Below are positions 5,784 to 20,911 of a DNA stretch of 25,388 nucleotides, in pieces. A model generated the notes under the pieces. It was given only the letters and a program-made list of their open reading frames with translations. It had not been told where the DNA came from and made no database searches. The DNA comes from a virus. The stretch spans positions 1-25,388 of the IMG/VR virus record IMGVR_UViG_3300044640_001009; one strand, given 5' to 3'. The first letter of the stretch is position 1. Each line of letters starts with the position of its first letter. Made by a program: the position numbers and the translations under genes.

Positions 5784-6193
5784 CACTCGGAGACCCCGAG
5801 CATGCAGGCGATCTCAGCCACCCATGCGTGATCCTCCTGGGAGGTCTTTGTCCCGCTGACCCAGATGCCTCCGAATGAGGGCTGGAAGGTGTCACCCGTG
5901 GGCCAGTTCGTGTTCAGGTAGCTCGAGGTGAGCGCGGCCCGGAGCGAGTTGATGGTCGAGACGAAGGTCGCCATCGAGGCACTCCCCAGCAGGGATGGTG
6001 CCGTGATCTTGACGGTTAACTCCGCCTTGTGAAGGCCCCCGGCGATTTGATCCACCGATGCGCAGGAGACGATGAGGTTGACCGCCTCCGGGTTCAGTTC
6101 GGCGTAGTCGCTGCCGAGGTTGATCTGGGTGCCGGTGAATGCCGAGGCGGCCAGCGCCGTCCTCATGCTTGTTTCGATCAGAAGGGGGTTCAT
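5783..6193 (-). CDS. Head-tail joining or tail terminator candidate (136 aa)
   Basis: The ATG overlaps the preceding stop as ATGA. The product is a soluble alpha/beta protein (MNPLLIETSMRTAL at the start, DHAWVAEIACMLGVSE at the end). It lies second after the major capsid gene and just before the tail tube genes, where tailed phages usually encode head-completion and tail-terminator proteins of about this length. The role is inferred from position; no family motif is recognised. Confidence 0.8.
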   Translation of the reverse strand: MNPLLIETSMRTALAASAFTGTQINLGSDYAELNPEAVNLIVSCASVDQIAGGLHKAELTVKITAPSLLGSASMATFVSTINSLRAALTSSYLNTNWPTGDTFQPSFGGIWVSGTKTSQEDHAWVAEIACMLGVSE

Positions 6194-6528
6194 TTCGTTG
6201 CTCGGACGGCGGTGACTTTGATCTCGTTCCCAAGAGGGGAACCGAGGAGTGAGGTGGCGCTTTCGACCGTGTAGGTGATATTCTCAGCCACCAGCAGGAC
6301 GGTGGTCCCCTTCGAGGGCTTCGGAGCACGGCCAACTGGCCATCGAAGGGTGATCTCACGATCAATGTTGAACCCGCCCAGATCATTCATCTCGGTCCCA
6401 ACCTGAGGGGTGCTTACATGGGCGTAGAAGGTTCGCCCAGAAATGGTGACCTGTGTGCCGAGAGCATCGGCTATGCTGGCAAGCCCCTTCGCATGGAAGG
6501 CGGCGATTGCTGATCGAGACAGGGCCAT
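6190..6528 (-). CDS. Head completion protein candidate (112 aa)
   Basis: This is the first gene after the major capsid protein, separated from it by a hairpin. The start at 6528 carries TTTGACA with the common 13-nt spacing and has no Shine-Dalgarno sequence. The sequence begins with a helical segment (FHAKGLASIADALG) and continues with beta-rich stretches (GTTVLLVAENITYTVES), compatible with a head-tail adaptor. The stop overlaps the next start as ATGA. The function is inferred from genome order. Confidence 0.8.
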   Translation of the reverse strand: MALSRSAIAAFHAKGLASIADALGTQVTISGRTFYAHVSTPQVGTEMNDLGGFNIDREITLRWPVGRAPKPSKGTTVLLVAENITYTVESATSLLGSPLGNEIKVTAVRATK

Positions 6529-8722: not shown

Positions 8723-8729
8723 TGTCAAA
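8723..8729 (-). promoter_or_regulatory. TTTGACA start-proximal motif, 17 nt before ATG 8705
   Basis: An exact motif; its TGA is the stop codon of the portal gene. No Shine-Dalgarno sequence precedes ATG 8705. Confidence 0.6.
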
Positions 8730-10212
8730 CGGCGGGGTCTGCCACTGGCTCCGCGGTGGGGACAACTGGCGAGCCGGGAGCAGGAGGGAAAACCTCCGAG
8801 ACGCTGATCTGGACTCCCTCCTCGGCGGCGATCTCCATCACCCGCTTCTTGCGACGGACGGCGGCGCGGATCGTGTCGTCCAGAACCTGATCGTGATCCT
8901 TGCCCCTCATGTTATGAAATTCCTGCGGGGAGATCTGCCCGCGCTGAACCATGTCGCTGAAGAGGCGGCCATCGCGCCCGATGTCCACGGAGACCTTCTG
9001 CGGTGCCGTGAACTCGCACCTCCACCAATCGCTGCCGTCGTTCGGCATGGGCAGGCGTCCGCTCTGGATCTCCTGCCAGACCCAGAACCTCCAGAATGGC
9101 GCGGCGAATGACTGGATGATAATCTCTTGAATGCGGCCAATGGTCTTGGCTGCGTCCTCCATCGCAAACCTCATGGTCGCGCCCCCGGCCTCCTCGGGAT
9201 CGAAGAGGACCGAGGCAGGCATGTTGAACCCGTGCGCGATGTCGCGCCTGAGGTATTTCAGGAAAGTGTCGAGGTTCGCGGACGGGTGGGCGTTGTTGAA
9301 CGACTCGATTTTCTCTCCCGGCTTCAACTGCGGGATGATCGAACCATCGGTCATGAGATCCTTCGTGACTGGCGTGCCAGATCCCGACTGGACCTTTTGA
9401 AGCGAGGAGCCGAGTCCGATCTGCCCGGCCTCCGGGGAGGTGATGACAAATGCCAAGGAGGAACCGAGCTTTGCGCTCATTTTCTCATAGCCGAGGATCT
9501 CGGTGATGTCCTGCAAGTGGTCGGCTGCGCGGTGGAGCCACGGGCGGGATCTCACCTGACCAATCCGGTCCACCTTCCCAACTCGGGTGAGGTCGTCCGC
9601 GCTGATCTCGTTGTATTCTGCGTAGTTACCGGGGGCCTTCAGCACTCGGTAGCGGGTCGGAGCACCGAGCTTGCTGACCTTCACTCCGTCCACCCATCCG
9701 TTTGCCACATCGCTGTGAGACGATCCGACGTTCTCGCCCGGGATGATCCGGAACATGGCGCGGTCGCTGTTCGATGTCTGCTTCTGCCAGAAGACATCCC
9801 CAGCAAGGGCCATCTGCTTCACCAAAAGTTCCTGCGCGTCGTAGAAGTTGACTTGCTTGGAGACATCGACGCCGAAAGCGGAGTTGCCGCAGGCGTCCTC
9901 GAATGCCTGCTCGGCGAGTCGGTTCCAATTCTCGTCGGCGGTCTTGGCCTGCGGGATCAGAGGGCCGACGAACTTCGCCACGCCATCCACCGCACGGGCG
10001 GCAAGGCCGATGTTCTCGTAGAGGAAAAAGGATTTCTTGGTCTGCTCAATCCTTGCCGAAGGGGTAAGTGCCTTGCTCGCGTCCAAGGTCGGCGTGTAGA
10101 TCCACATCCGCTGTGGCGAGGCAATGCCATCGGCAGAGGAGAAGTTGGTTGTCTTCTTAGGGCGACCCGCGCCGGGTCGATAGCCACCACGCTTTGATTT
10201 CGGTTCGCTCAT
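8725..10212 (-). CDS. Portal protein, lambda gpB type (495 aa)
   Basis: This forms the dodecameric ring through which DNA enters the head. The segment around 290-350 (GEKIESFNNAHPSANL, then RDIAHGFNMPASVLF and GGATMRFAMEDAAK) is typical of lambda-type portals. The length is near that of lambda gpB. An unusual N-terminal patch (GYRPGAGRPKK, residues 10-20) resembles an AT-hook, more often seen on terminase or DNA-binding proteins. The gene lies downstream of the terminase and a gpW-position gene. The start has TTTGACA 13 nt upstream and no Shine-Dalgarno sequence; 38 nt upstream ends a tRNA-like gene. Confidence 0.92.
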   Translation of the reverse strand: MSEPKSKRGGYRPGAGRPKKTTNFSSADGIASPQRMWIYTPTLDASKALTPSARIEQTKKSFFLYENIGLAARAVDGVAKFVGPLIPQAKTADENWNRLAEQAFEDACGNSAFGVDVSKQVNFYDAQELLVKQMALAGDVFWQKQTSNSDRAMFRIIPGENVGSSHSDVANGWVDGVKVSKLGAPTRYRVLKAPGNYAEYNEISADDLTRVGKVDRIGQVRSRPWLHRAADHLQDITEILGYEKMSAKLGSSLAFVITSPEAGQIGLGSSLQKVQSGSGTPVTKDLMTDGSIIPQLKPGEKIESFNNAHPSANLDTFLKYLRRDIAHGFNMPASVLFDPEEAGGATMRFAMEDAAKTIGRIQEIIIQSFAAPFWRFWVWQEIQSGRLPMPNDGSDWWRCEFTAPQKVSVDIGRDGRLFSDMVQRGQISPQEFHNMRGKDHDQVLDDTIRAAVRRKKRVMEIAAEEGVQISVSEVFPPAPGSPVVPTAEPVADPAV

Positions 10213-10225
10213 GCATGAGCGTACC

Positions 10226-10232
10226 TGTCAAA
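10226..10232 (-). promoter_or_regulatory. TTTGACA start-proximal motif, 13 nt before ATG 10212
   Basis: An exact copy between the tRNA-like gene and the portal start. The spacer GGTACGCTCATGC has no Shine-Dalgarno sequence. Confidence 0.7.
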
Positions 10233-10250
10233 ATTCAAACGGAAATCAAA

Positions 10251-10326
10251 TGGCACAGCCCCTCCGAATCGAACGGAGCCAGATGGTTTTGGAGACCTTC
10301 TCGCCTACCTTGGAACATTGGACTGC
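10251..10326 (-). tRNA. tRNA-Trp(CCA)-like gene with encoded CCA end
   Basis: A 76-nt minus-strand element folds as a tRNA. The acceptor GCAGTCC pairs with GGGCTGT over seven pairs, two of them G-U. Discriminator G and an encoded CCA follow. The T-arm is perfect (CTCCG, loop TTCGATT, CGGAG). The anticodon loop is CTCCAAA with anticodon CCA for tryptophan, in a stem AAGGT/ACCAT with one A-A mismatch. The variable loop has four bases. The D-arm is weak, though its loop keeps AAGGTA, and U8 is missing. G73 agrees with tRNA-Trp. The D-arm weakness could mean a degenerate or non-decoding tRNA. Confidence 0.7.
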
Positions 10327-10411
10327 TAAATTGGTTCCCGGCTGGGCTGACCATATCAAGCCGCCGAAAAAGTCGAGCGGCACCGGGATCTCTCAGGCGT
10401 CCCCGAGAAAA

Positions 10412-10714
10412 TCAAACCGACCATCGTAGGTTGCCGAAGTCGGGAAAGGTGCCAAGCTGGCGGGTCTGGATAATTGCGGTCGGGTCCAATACGGCGATGC
10501 ACTCCGTAATCGCGTTCAGGTAAGCCCACTTCGGAAGGGTCACTTCTCCATTAGCAGATCCCCCCTCGGCACTCGTCCCGGTGATGGTGACATCCTCAAC
10601 CGCTTGGTTGAAAACCTTCTTCTCAAGCTCGCGCAGATCCTCCAACAAGAAGTTCCGCAGAAGGTAGGACTTGATGCCAGAAATCTTGGCATGGTCGGGA
10701 GTGTTCGAGGCCAT
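10412..10714 (-). CDS. Head-tail joining protein candidate at lambda W position (100 aa)
   Basis: This small soluble protein is encoded between large terminase and portal, where lambda carries W. It is mostly helical at the N-terminus (LRNFLLEDLRELEKKVFNQ), then more extended, ending DFGNLRWSV. The ATG at 10714 has TTTGACA exactly 13 nt upstream within a G-rich spacer. No sequence match to gpW is claimed; the role is positional. The 3' side of the gene is separated from the portal start by about 200 bp that hold the tRNA-like gene. Confidence 0.7.
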   Translation of the reverse strand: MASNTPDHAKISGIKSYLLRNFLLEDLRELEKKVFNQAVEDVTITGTSAEGGSANGEVTLPKWAYLNAITECIAVLDPTAIIQTRQLGTFPDFGNLRWSV

Positions 10715-19682: not shown

Positions 19683-19850
19683 TGGGACAACCTTGGGACA
19701 AACAGCCGCTAGAGGCTGATAAAGACTGACCCCGCTGGGAATCGAACCCAGATCTAGAGTCTGTGGGTTTGTTTCTACGTTTTTCATTTTCTCTCTGTAG
19801 GATTTTATTTTTTGTTGTTTTTTTTACTCTGTCTTGGGACACGTGGGACA
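19683..19850 (+). repeat. TGGGACA repeats flanking attP: integrase arm-site candidates
   Basis: Four same-orientation copies of TGGGACA form two pairs, at 19683 and 19694 to the left of the tRNA-like core and at 19835 and 19844 to its right, just before the integrase ATG. Spacing within pairs is 11 and 9 nt, about one helical turn. This matches the arm-type binding sites of lambda-like integrases. The interval also holds a T-rich tract (about 19779-19828) that would be easily bent. Confidence 0.55.
19727..19751 (-). other. attP core: 3' end of a tRNA
   Basis: On the minus strand the sequence has a perfect T-arm (CTGGG, TTCGATT, CCCAG) followed by an acceptor-like CGGGGTC and discriminator A. 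No 5' half of a tRNA is present upstream, so this is a tRNA 3' fragment, the usual attP of tRNA-integrating phages. It lies 105 bp before the integrase ATG. The host target would be a tRNA whose acceptor starts GACCCCG. Confidence 0.75.
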
Positions 19851-19855
19851 CAAAC

Positions 19856-20911
19856 ATGGCCAAGATTTACTACCGAAATTCCTCCCCGATGATATGGATT
19901 CAGCGCAAGGTCGCGGGACGATGGGTTCGCGAGCGCACGGAGTGGCGTGTCGGTGATCGTGCTGGGGAGAGGAAGGCCCTCGCCCTGTGCGCCCGGCTCT
20001 CCCTCGAGGAGATGAGTGCAGGGAAGCGGGAACTCTCCGGAGACTTCGCCAACTGGGTTGAGCCGTGGCTGGTTGAAAAATACGGCAGCAGCACCACGAC
20101 CACCCTCTCTGTCTACCAGCGGCAGTGGCGGCACCTGAGCAAGTGGATGCAGGCCAAAGGCCACAGACACCCACTCGACATCACGAGGGCTTCCCTCTCC
20201 GACTACCGTGCCTGGCGCGATCCCGACTCTCAGGCCCGCAACCTCGGCGCGAGAATCAACACCGTCATCGGCGAGATCCGGACGCTCGGCGTGATCCTGA
20301 AGGAGGCCAAGGCCCGTGGCCACTGCCGCGAGATCGTCACCGACAAGCTGGGCTGGAAGTCCGAAGCCCGCAGGGAATACGAGCCCTGGACTGACGAGGA
20401 GTTTGCGAAGGCCCTGAGCGCGAGTGAGAAGCTGAAGGGAGATCGGGAGTGGATTCGCGTCGCACTCATCCTCGGAGCCTACCAGGCTGCCCGAGGGCGA
20501 CAGGTGCAGGTGCCCCTCTCCGCCATCGACTTTGAGGCAGGGATGATTTACTGGCCCAAGGAGGTCATGAAGGGGAAGCGTGCCGACTGGGTGCAGCCCC
20601 TTGATCCCCGGGCGGCCATCCTGCTGAAGCCTATTGTCGAGGCTCGCAGGAAGGCCGGCAAGGCCACCCTCGCCGACGTGGCCCTGTTGAACTCCATCAA
20701 GATGCGCCGATGGCTTGACGGACTCGGGATTCACAAGGTCCACCACGGCCTCCGGGCGACGTGGATCACCAAGGCCGCCCTTGCGGGAGTCCCCCAGGCT
20801 GTCGCTATGGCCTTTGTGCATCATAGTGGTCCGGCGGTGCATCGCTTGTATCAGCGGGTCAGGCCATCGCAGTCTGCCGAGTTTTTGCAGAAGATTTCTT
20901 TCGGGAAATGA
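19856..20911 (+). CDS. int: Tyrosine recombinase (integrase, 351 aa)
   Basis: Site-specific recombinase for integration and excision. Catalytic residues are visible: Arg213 (YQAARGRQ), His297/Arg300 (HHGLRATW), His323 (FVHHSG) and the nucleophile Tyr332 (HRLYQR). An N-terminal arm-binding region (1-60) precedes a SAM-like core-binding domain (about 65-160). The start at 19856 (MAKIYYRN) lies right after the arm-site pair. The longer frame to 19763 begins inside the T-rich tract and is rejected. Its 3' end overlaps a gene on the opposite strand by 53 bp. Confidence 0.93.
   Translation: MAKIYYRNSSPMIWIQRKVAGRWVRERTEWRVGDRAGERKALALCARLSLEEMSAGKRELSGDFANWVEPWLVEKYGSSTTTTLSVYQRQWRHLSKWMQAKGHRHPLDITRASLSDYRAWRDPDSQARNLGARINTVIGEIRTLGVILKEAKARGHCREIVTDKLGWKSEARREYEPWTDEEFAKALSASEKLKGDREWIRVALILGAYQAARGRQVQVPLSAIDFEAGMIYWPKEVMKGKRADWVQPLDPRAAILLKPIVEARRKAGKATLADVALLNSIKMRRWLDGLGIHKVHHGLRATWITKAALAGVPQAVAMAFVHHSGPAVHRLYQRVRPSQSAEFLQKISFGK

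Follow-up and report, generated by a model that had tools for sequence, protein, structure and literature searches.

Canonical bacterial and phage tRNA-Trp(CCA) genes (Rfam RF00005) combine a 7-bp acceptor stem, a 5-bp T stem with a TTCRATT loop, a G18G19-like GG in the D loop, a CTCCAAA anticodon loop, G73, and a CCA end. tRNA-Pyl is built differently, with a 6-bp anticodon stem and a 3-nt variable region, and a longer anticodon stem is part of tRNA-Sec geometry as well. A tRNA-Trp(CCA) with a 4-bp anticodon stem has been described in bacterial genomes, and core and stem variants of tRNA-Trp(CCA), including D-arm and anticodon-stem variants in E. coli, raise UGA reading (PMC13092985). Phage tRNAs can also counter host defenses: the tRNA-Tyr of T5 and SP15 counters retron-Eco7 (PMC11555353), and anticodon-loop variants are known (PMC10264068).

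We analyzed a 25,388-nt stretch of viral DNA, hereafter the window (IMG/VR virus record IMGVR_UViG_3300044640_001009, positions 1 to 25,388). Judged by its sequence, an element lying between two head genes of the window is a tRNA-Trp of a widespread phage-borne class that is restricted to Trp and Ala and has a common odd core. The element shares all of the canonical tRNA-Trp(CCA) features listed above. Unlike the canonical form, however, members of the class have no U8, and of the D stem only a CC/GG mini-stem remains, to which UG..CG pairs may add. Their anticodon stem is 6 bp long and their variable region usually 3 nt, and the element misses the RF00005 cut-off. The longer anticodon stem recalls tRNA-Sec and tRNA-Pyl, and tRNA-Sec is the top Rfam tRNA-clan match of the element (24.2 bits against a cut-off of 47), but the class has CCA or Ala anticodons, a canonical T loop, a 7/5 acceptor branch, and no Sec or Pyl identity elements; the element itself carries CCA, not UCA, and a 7/5 branch, not 8/5 or 9/4. 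It resembles the 4-bp-stem tRNA-Trp(CCA) in having an anticodon stem of nonstandard length but differs from it in that this stem has 6 bp, the class is phage-borne, and TGA use in the window is high. With the defense-countering tRNAs the class shares phage encoding, and the strong phage promoter of the T5 type is similar to promoters that precede class copies outside the head operon. The class, however, is altered in the core and anticodon stem rather than in the anticodon loop, and it is not known to counter any defense.

The first-pass annotation had proposed a tRNA-Trp-like gene inside the head operon. ARAGORN, run on the whole window, called exactly one tRNA, a tRNA-Trp(CCA) at 10251-10326 on the minus strand, as annotated; the head genes are on the minus strand too. 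The background for such calls was 3 in 200 simulated windows of matched dinucleotide make-up. The acceptor stem, perfect T arm, CTCCAAA loop with a Trp anticodon, G73, and encoded CCA that had been described are all present in the window sequence, as are the weak D arm and the absence of U8 (position 8 is A). The parts of the gene are as follows.

10251..10326, minus strand: tRNA-Trp(CCA) gene of the non-canonical-core class, 76 nt including the encoded CCA (ARAGORN; family model R1, 83.5 bits; Ala-only model R2, 57.0 bits)
10320..10326, minus strand: 5' strand of the acceptor stem, GCAGTCC, nt 1-7 (all 7 pairs covary across the class)
10301..10319, minus strand: non-canonical D region, AA-TGTTCC-AAGG-TA-GGCGA, nt 8-26, with D mini-stem CC/GG (invariant core)
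10282..10300, minus strand: anticodon arm, 6-bp stem GAAGGT/ACCATC and loop CTCCAAA (class-wide both-sided changes at all six pairs)
10292-10290, minus strand: anticodon CCA (ARAGORN)
10279..10281, minus strand: variable region TGG, 3 nt (TGG in 120 of the 132 members listed, a count partly fixed by the search patterns; 4-5 nt in the remainder)
10262..10278, minus strand: T arm, CTCCG-TTCGATT-CGGAG (five covarying pairs; canonical T loop)
10251..10261, minus strand: 3' strand of the acceptor stem, discriminator G73 (10254), and encoded CCA (10253-10251) (G73 in 85 of 86 distinct Trp members listed)

The acceptor stem pairs nt 1-7 (10326-10320) with nt 66-72 (10261-10255), including G1·U72 and U5·G68, and the anticodon stem of the window copy contains one A-A mismatch. 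No match in the window reaches the gathering cut-off of the Rfam tRNA family (RF00005, 29 bits), and the single-sequence fold of the element is unexceptional (z = -0.97). The case for a tRNA thus rests on its relatives, through conservation and covariation. The surrounding locus has the following features.

8725..10212, minus strand: portal gene, downstream of the tRNA (Pfam PF05136, Phage_portal_2; PHROG 21)
10226..10232, minus strand: TTTGACA before the portal start codon, a candidate 5' signal that recurs in the window (motif count in the window)
10333..10407, minus strand: structured RNA module A, upstream of the tRNA (predicted hairpins, -33.4 kcal/mol)
10412..10714, minus strand: 100-aa gene upstream of the tRNA, in the gpW position (open reading frame)

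The annotated location between the gpW-position gene and the portal gene holds, but the name gpW reflects position alone: Pfam and PHROG searches with the 100-aa gene returned no match. The 38-nt portal leader that had been reported is there as well, running from the CCA to the portal ATG and carrying TTTGACA at 10232-10226. This heptamer occurs eight times on the minus strand of the window (23921, 13107, 10734, 10232, 8729, 6548, 5681, and 3234) and never on the plus strand, mostly ~14 nt ahead of a start codon (TerS, the gpW-position gene, the portal gene, and 6190-6528), and it seems to serve this phage as a recurring start signal.

A portal-based search yielded 30 related viral loci. The tRNA is conserved between the same two genes in 22 of them and absent from the other eight, so it is dispensable. 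Among the 22 carriers the T stem reads CTCCG/CGGAG, CTCGG/CCGAG, or CTTGG/CCAAG, and the anticodon stem, GAAGGT/ACCATC or GCGAGA/TCTTGC, encloses the same CTCCAAA loop throughout; these compensatory changes indicate that the RNA structure is under selection. The eight tRNA-less loci run from the upstream stop codon through a TTTGATT-type run and TTTGACA to the portal start with no interruption.

This comparison bears on the second proposal of the first-pass annotation, that the element is a tRNA-like signal at which RNase P and 3' cleavage would free the portal mRNA; on this reading it is kept mainly to set the 5' end of that mRNA. In every relative that has it, the element sits between the same pair of genes, which, like the 38-nt leader, would fit such a role. 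The eight relatives without the element nevertheless keep a similar TTTGACA leader, the same RNA is found in unrelated phages as part of tRNA arrays or immediately downstream of a promoter of its own, and the anticodon loop and identity elements are conserved, although a mere cleavage signal has no need of identity elements. We therefore do not favor processing of the portal mRNA as the main function and regard it as unlikely.

A further rival is that the tRNA inserts Trp at UGA, its altered core allowing the CCA anticodon to read through that codon. The upstream gene ends in TGA, the frame in the window then stays open for 59 codons through the tRNA (10212-10414), and core and stem variants of tRNA-Trp(CCA) do raise UGA reading (PMC13092985). 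Against this, the anticodon stem is longer (6 bp) rather than shorter, TGA ends 13 of the 21 genes in the window, and Ala tRNAs have the same core; in the relatives L011, L015, and L023, the open extension spans only 8-26 codons. Since the extension is inconsistently open in relatives and TGA is heavily used as a stop, we rejected UGA read-through, which we consider very improbable.

Equally improbable is tRNA-dependent lysogeny, which exists in mycobacteriophages (PMC10865867) and in which the phage would integrate into and destroy the host tRNA-Trp gene while supplying its own copy. The window does encode an integrase (19763-20911). The 28-kb record of a related locus, L021, however, lacks the tRNA although its integrase is 91% identical to that of the window, the integrases of several tRNA carriers reach only ~25% identity, and the same tRNA is found in unrelated phages. 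We disfavor this explanation too, because the presence of the tRNA does not follow integrase type. As a separate observation, the integrase matches of two related loci (L012 and L028) each contain one TGA and one TAG in frame.

The spread of the tRNA extends well beyond the head operon. A 19-mer from its 5' half is present in 57 viral stretches, and many of these copies lie in other, often larger phages, where they adjoin tRNA-Gln, tRNA-Asn, or tRNA-Met genes. On one otherwise unrelated phage contig (L072) the tRNA is identical to the window copy over all 76 nt, and blastn finds just 79 nt in common between that contig and the window; the gene, therefore, moves on its own. Upstream of copies outside the head operon lies a promoter-like hexamer pair, spaced by 16-17 nt and set 6-7 nt away from tRNA nt 1. 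Head-operon copies have no convincing promoter in front of them, so their expression depends on operon read-through.

We delimited the class with relaxed patterns across 2.9 million viral contigs, which recovered at least 119 stretches and, in a separate search for anticodons not starting with C, 63. The class core is [A/C]A-UGNNCC-AAGG-N1-4-GGCGA, joined to a 6-bp anticodon stem and the usual 3-nt variable region. Among the matches listed there are 136 distinct copies: 88 with CCA (Trp), 47 with Ala anticodons (44 UGC, 2 GGC, and 1 CGC), and one damaged Trp copy. Patterns for nearly all of the remaining anticodons returned nothing beyond the damaged Trp copy and a single non-tRNA stretch. Damaged copy aside, Trp and Ala are thus the sole anticodon types of the class among the matches listed from the 2.9 million contigs. 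A 224-kb phage (L215, 10480-10760) carries a cluster of three Ala tRNAs with the non-canonical core, whose anticodons are UGC, GGC, and CGC.

Covariation was assessed in an alignment of 42 diverse class sequences with 22 modeled pairs. These pairs are formed in 98.2% of cells, versus 40-47% when the structure is slid by 1-3 columns, and both-sided changes occur at 18 of the 22, which include every acceptor, anticodon-stem, and T-stem pair. The 7-bp acceptor and 5-bp T stem of a tRNA-Trp are, by this measure, under selection in all of their pairs, and the element also holds the 7-nt CTCCAAA loop with its CCA anticodon and G73 at 10254. All 42 sequences form the outermost, sixth pair of the anticodon stem, with six pair types among them; a further invariant A-U pair proposed by RNAalifold would extend this stem to 7 bp. 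Pairing in the D region is less certain, because that region is nearly invariant; the CC/GG mini-stem has the support of one both-sided change at one of its two pairs (to CT/AG), in the tRNA-Ala of Klebsiella phage phi1_175008. In the predicted core the D arm is cut down to a short mini-stem, position 8 is not U, the anticodon stem has 6 (possibly 7) bp, and the variable region is usually 3 nt long.

Family models set the element far above background. With model R1, class members score 57.7-87.6 bits and canonical tRNAs at most 45.5; the 83.5 bits of the window tRNA were obtained with a training set that included the window sequence. For this reason we built a second model, R2, from Ala members only. 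With no Trp sequence inside it, R2 gives the window tRNA its 57.0 bits, and no canonical tRNA in the R2 search exceeded 38.4, an independent test that ties the Trp and Ala groups together. The window tRNA, then, combines the core motif with the 6-bp anticodon stem and clearly outscores canonical tRNAs. The suggestion that it is a divergent tRNA gains support, with the weak D arm and missing U8 as fixed signatures of a phage-borne class.

The same data dispose of the view that the element is a decaying tRNA pseudogene or the remnant of an attachment site. A weak D arm, the lack of U8, one anticodon-stem mismatch, a score below the Rfam cut-off, and a relative annotated as tRNA-Pseudo all point that way. 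Systematic compensatory changes and an invariant core across the class point the other way, and class covariation rules the pseudogene out, leaving it the most improbable of the alternatives.

The identity elements are isotype correct. Among the matches listed, 85 of 86 distinct Trp members have G73. Every Ala member has G3·U70 (41 of 41 with UGC), and A73 is shared by 40 of the 41 UGC-Ala members; the relaxed class queries left all of these positions free. G73 for bacterial TrpRS, and G3·U70 with A73 for Ala, are known bacterial determinants (PMC9976931). The CTCCAAA loop is found in 86 of 86 distinct Trp members listed, a position fixed by the relaxed query and free in the 19-mer query. Because AlaRS and TrpRS both read mainly the acceptor end, and TrpRS also the anticodon, the unusual core is compatible with both enzymes.

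Class members also occur in cultured phages of Mycobacterium, Bacillus, Pseudomonas, and Klebsiella, where they are annotated as tRNA-Ala, tRNA-Pseudo (UGG), or tRNA-Undet or not at all. The member in Bacillus phage Mater (L240, 1493-1569) is labeled tRNA-Pseudo and that in Mycobacterium phage Nanosmite (L247, 1201-1275) Undet; ARAGORN skips the Ala member within the tRNA arrays of L250 and L264. The matches in Estes and Kremar are among the cultured-phage members annotated as pseudo, annotated as undetermined, or left out. In a bacterial sample of ~1,170 genomes from the phyla of four seed genomes, we found just three class-level matches, and on that sample we rejected a housekeeping bacterial tRNA. 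Two are seeds: one lies on a phage-like contig that bears genes of replication type, the other within the tRNA array of a small contig. The third is a further small contig with a tRNA array. Matches of 44 bits in Nitrospirota proved by inspection to be ordinary tRNA-Trp, and a class search of plasmids returned nothing. That the class is phage-borne is well supported, with bacterial sampling that spans four phyla and is not exhaustive. In the full-text literature searched, which covers few subscription papers, we found no description of the class, and a prior mention is possible.

We conclude that the element is very probably a functional phage-encoded tRNA-Trp of a phage-borne class with a non-canonical core. 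Stem covariation, the invariant anticodon loop, isotype-correct identity elements, movement between unrelated phages, and loss or absence in some relatives argue for it; the missed Rfam cut-off, the pseudo label of the Mater member, and the A-A pair in the anticodon stem count against it. By threshold the element falls outside the Rfam tRNA family, yet it most likely carries tRNA-Trp identity and works like a tRNA-Trp. The tRNA would be transcribed together with the head genes. Host RNase P and 3' processing would then free it from that transcript, host TrpRS would charge it by recognizing G73 and the CCA anticodon, and it would serve UGG codons in late protein synthesis. Excision from the operon transcript probably occurs and may shape the end of the portal mRNA.

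Among reasons for the unusual core, we tentatively rank evasion of tRNA-targeting defenses first, with less than even confidence. The core might let these tRNAs work on host ribosomes yet escape host enzymes that recognize a normal elbow or core, such as tRNA-targeting defense nucleases and core-modifying enzymes, a suggestion that we likewise think possible rather than probable. A VapC toxin cuts phage tRNA-Trp among others (PMC13273310), and other phage tRNAs offer precedents for evasion (PMC11555353 and PMC10264068). The many phage tRNAs that share this nonstandard core have in part been missed or mislabeled. Its restriction to Trp and Ala predicts that such tRNAs are served only by synthetases that ignore the core, and the class offers a testable system for asking what makes phages retain tRNA genes of their own and how much deviation in the core translation tolerates.

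The pre-portal gap holds other RNA-like elements. Across the window and the 30 related loci it contains exchangeable structured modules in varied combinations, namely, A (CTCGGGGACGCCTGAGAG...), B, and C (ATCTTCGGTGAACC), and a three-hairpin block downstream is a further exchangeable module. Module A is present in part of the relatives. The pre-portal modules had no Rfam match in the loci tested, and a TPP riboswitch as the identity of module A was dropped, as no Rfam match appeared at E values up to 10 or in related loci. In several larger phages (L031, L033, L052, L078, and others), an unclassified RNA-like stretch (GGGGATCTTCGGTGAACC ... CGGGGGAGGCAATGAGGGG) lies just after the tRNA-Trp, and in L263, from which the tRNA is absent, module A stands beside an RNA-like stretch similar to this post-tRNA one.
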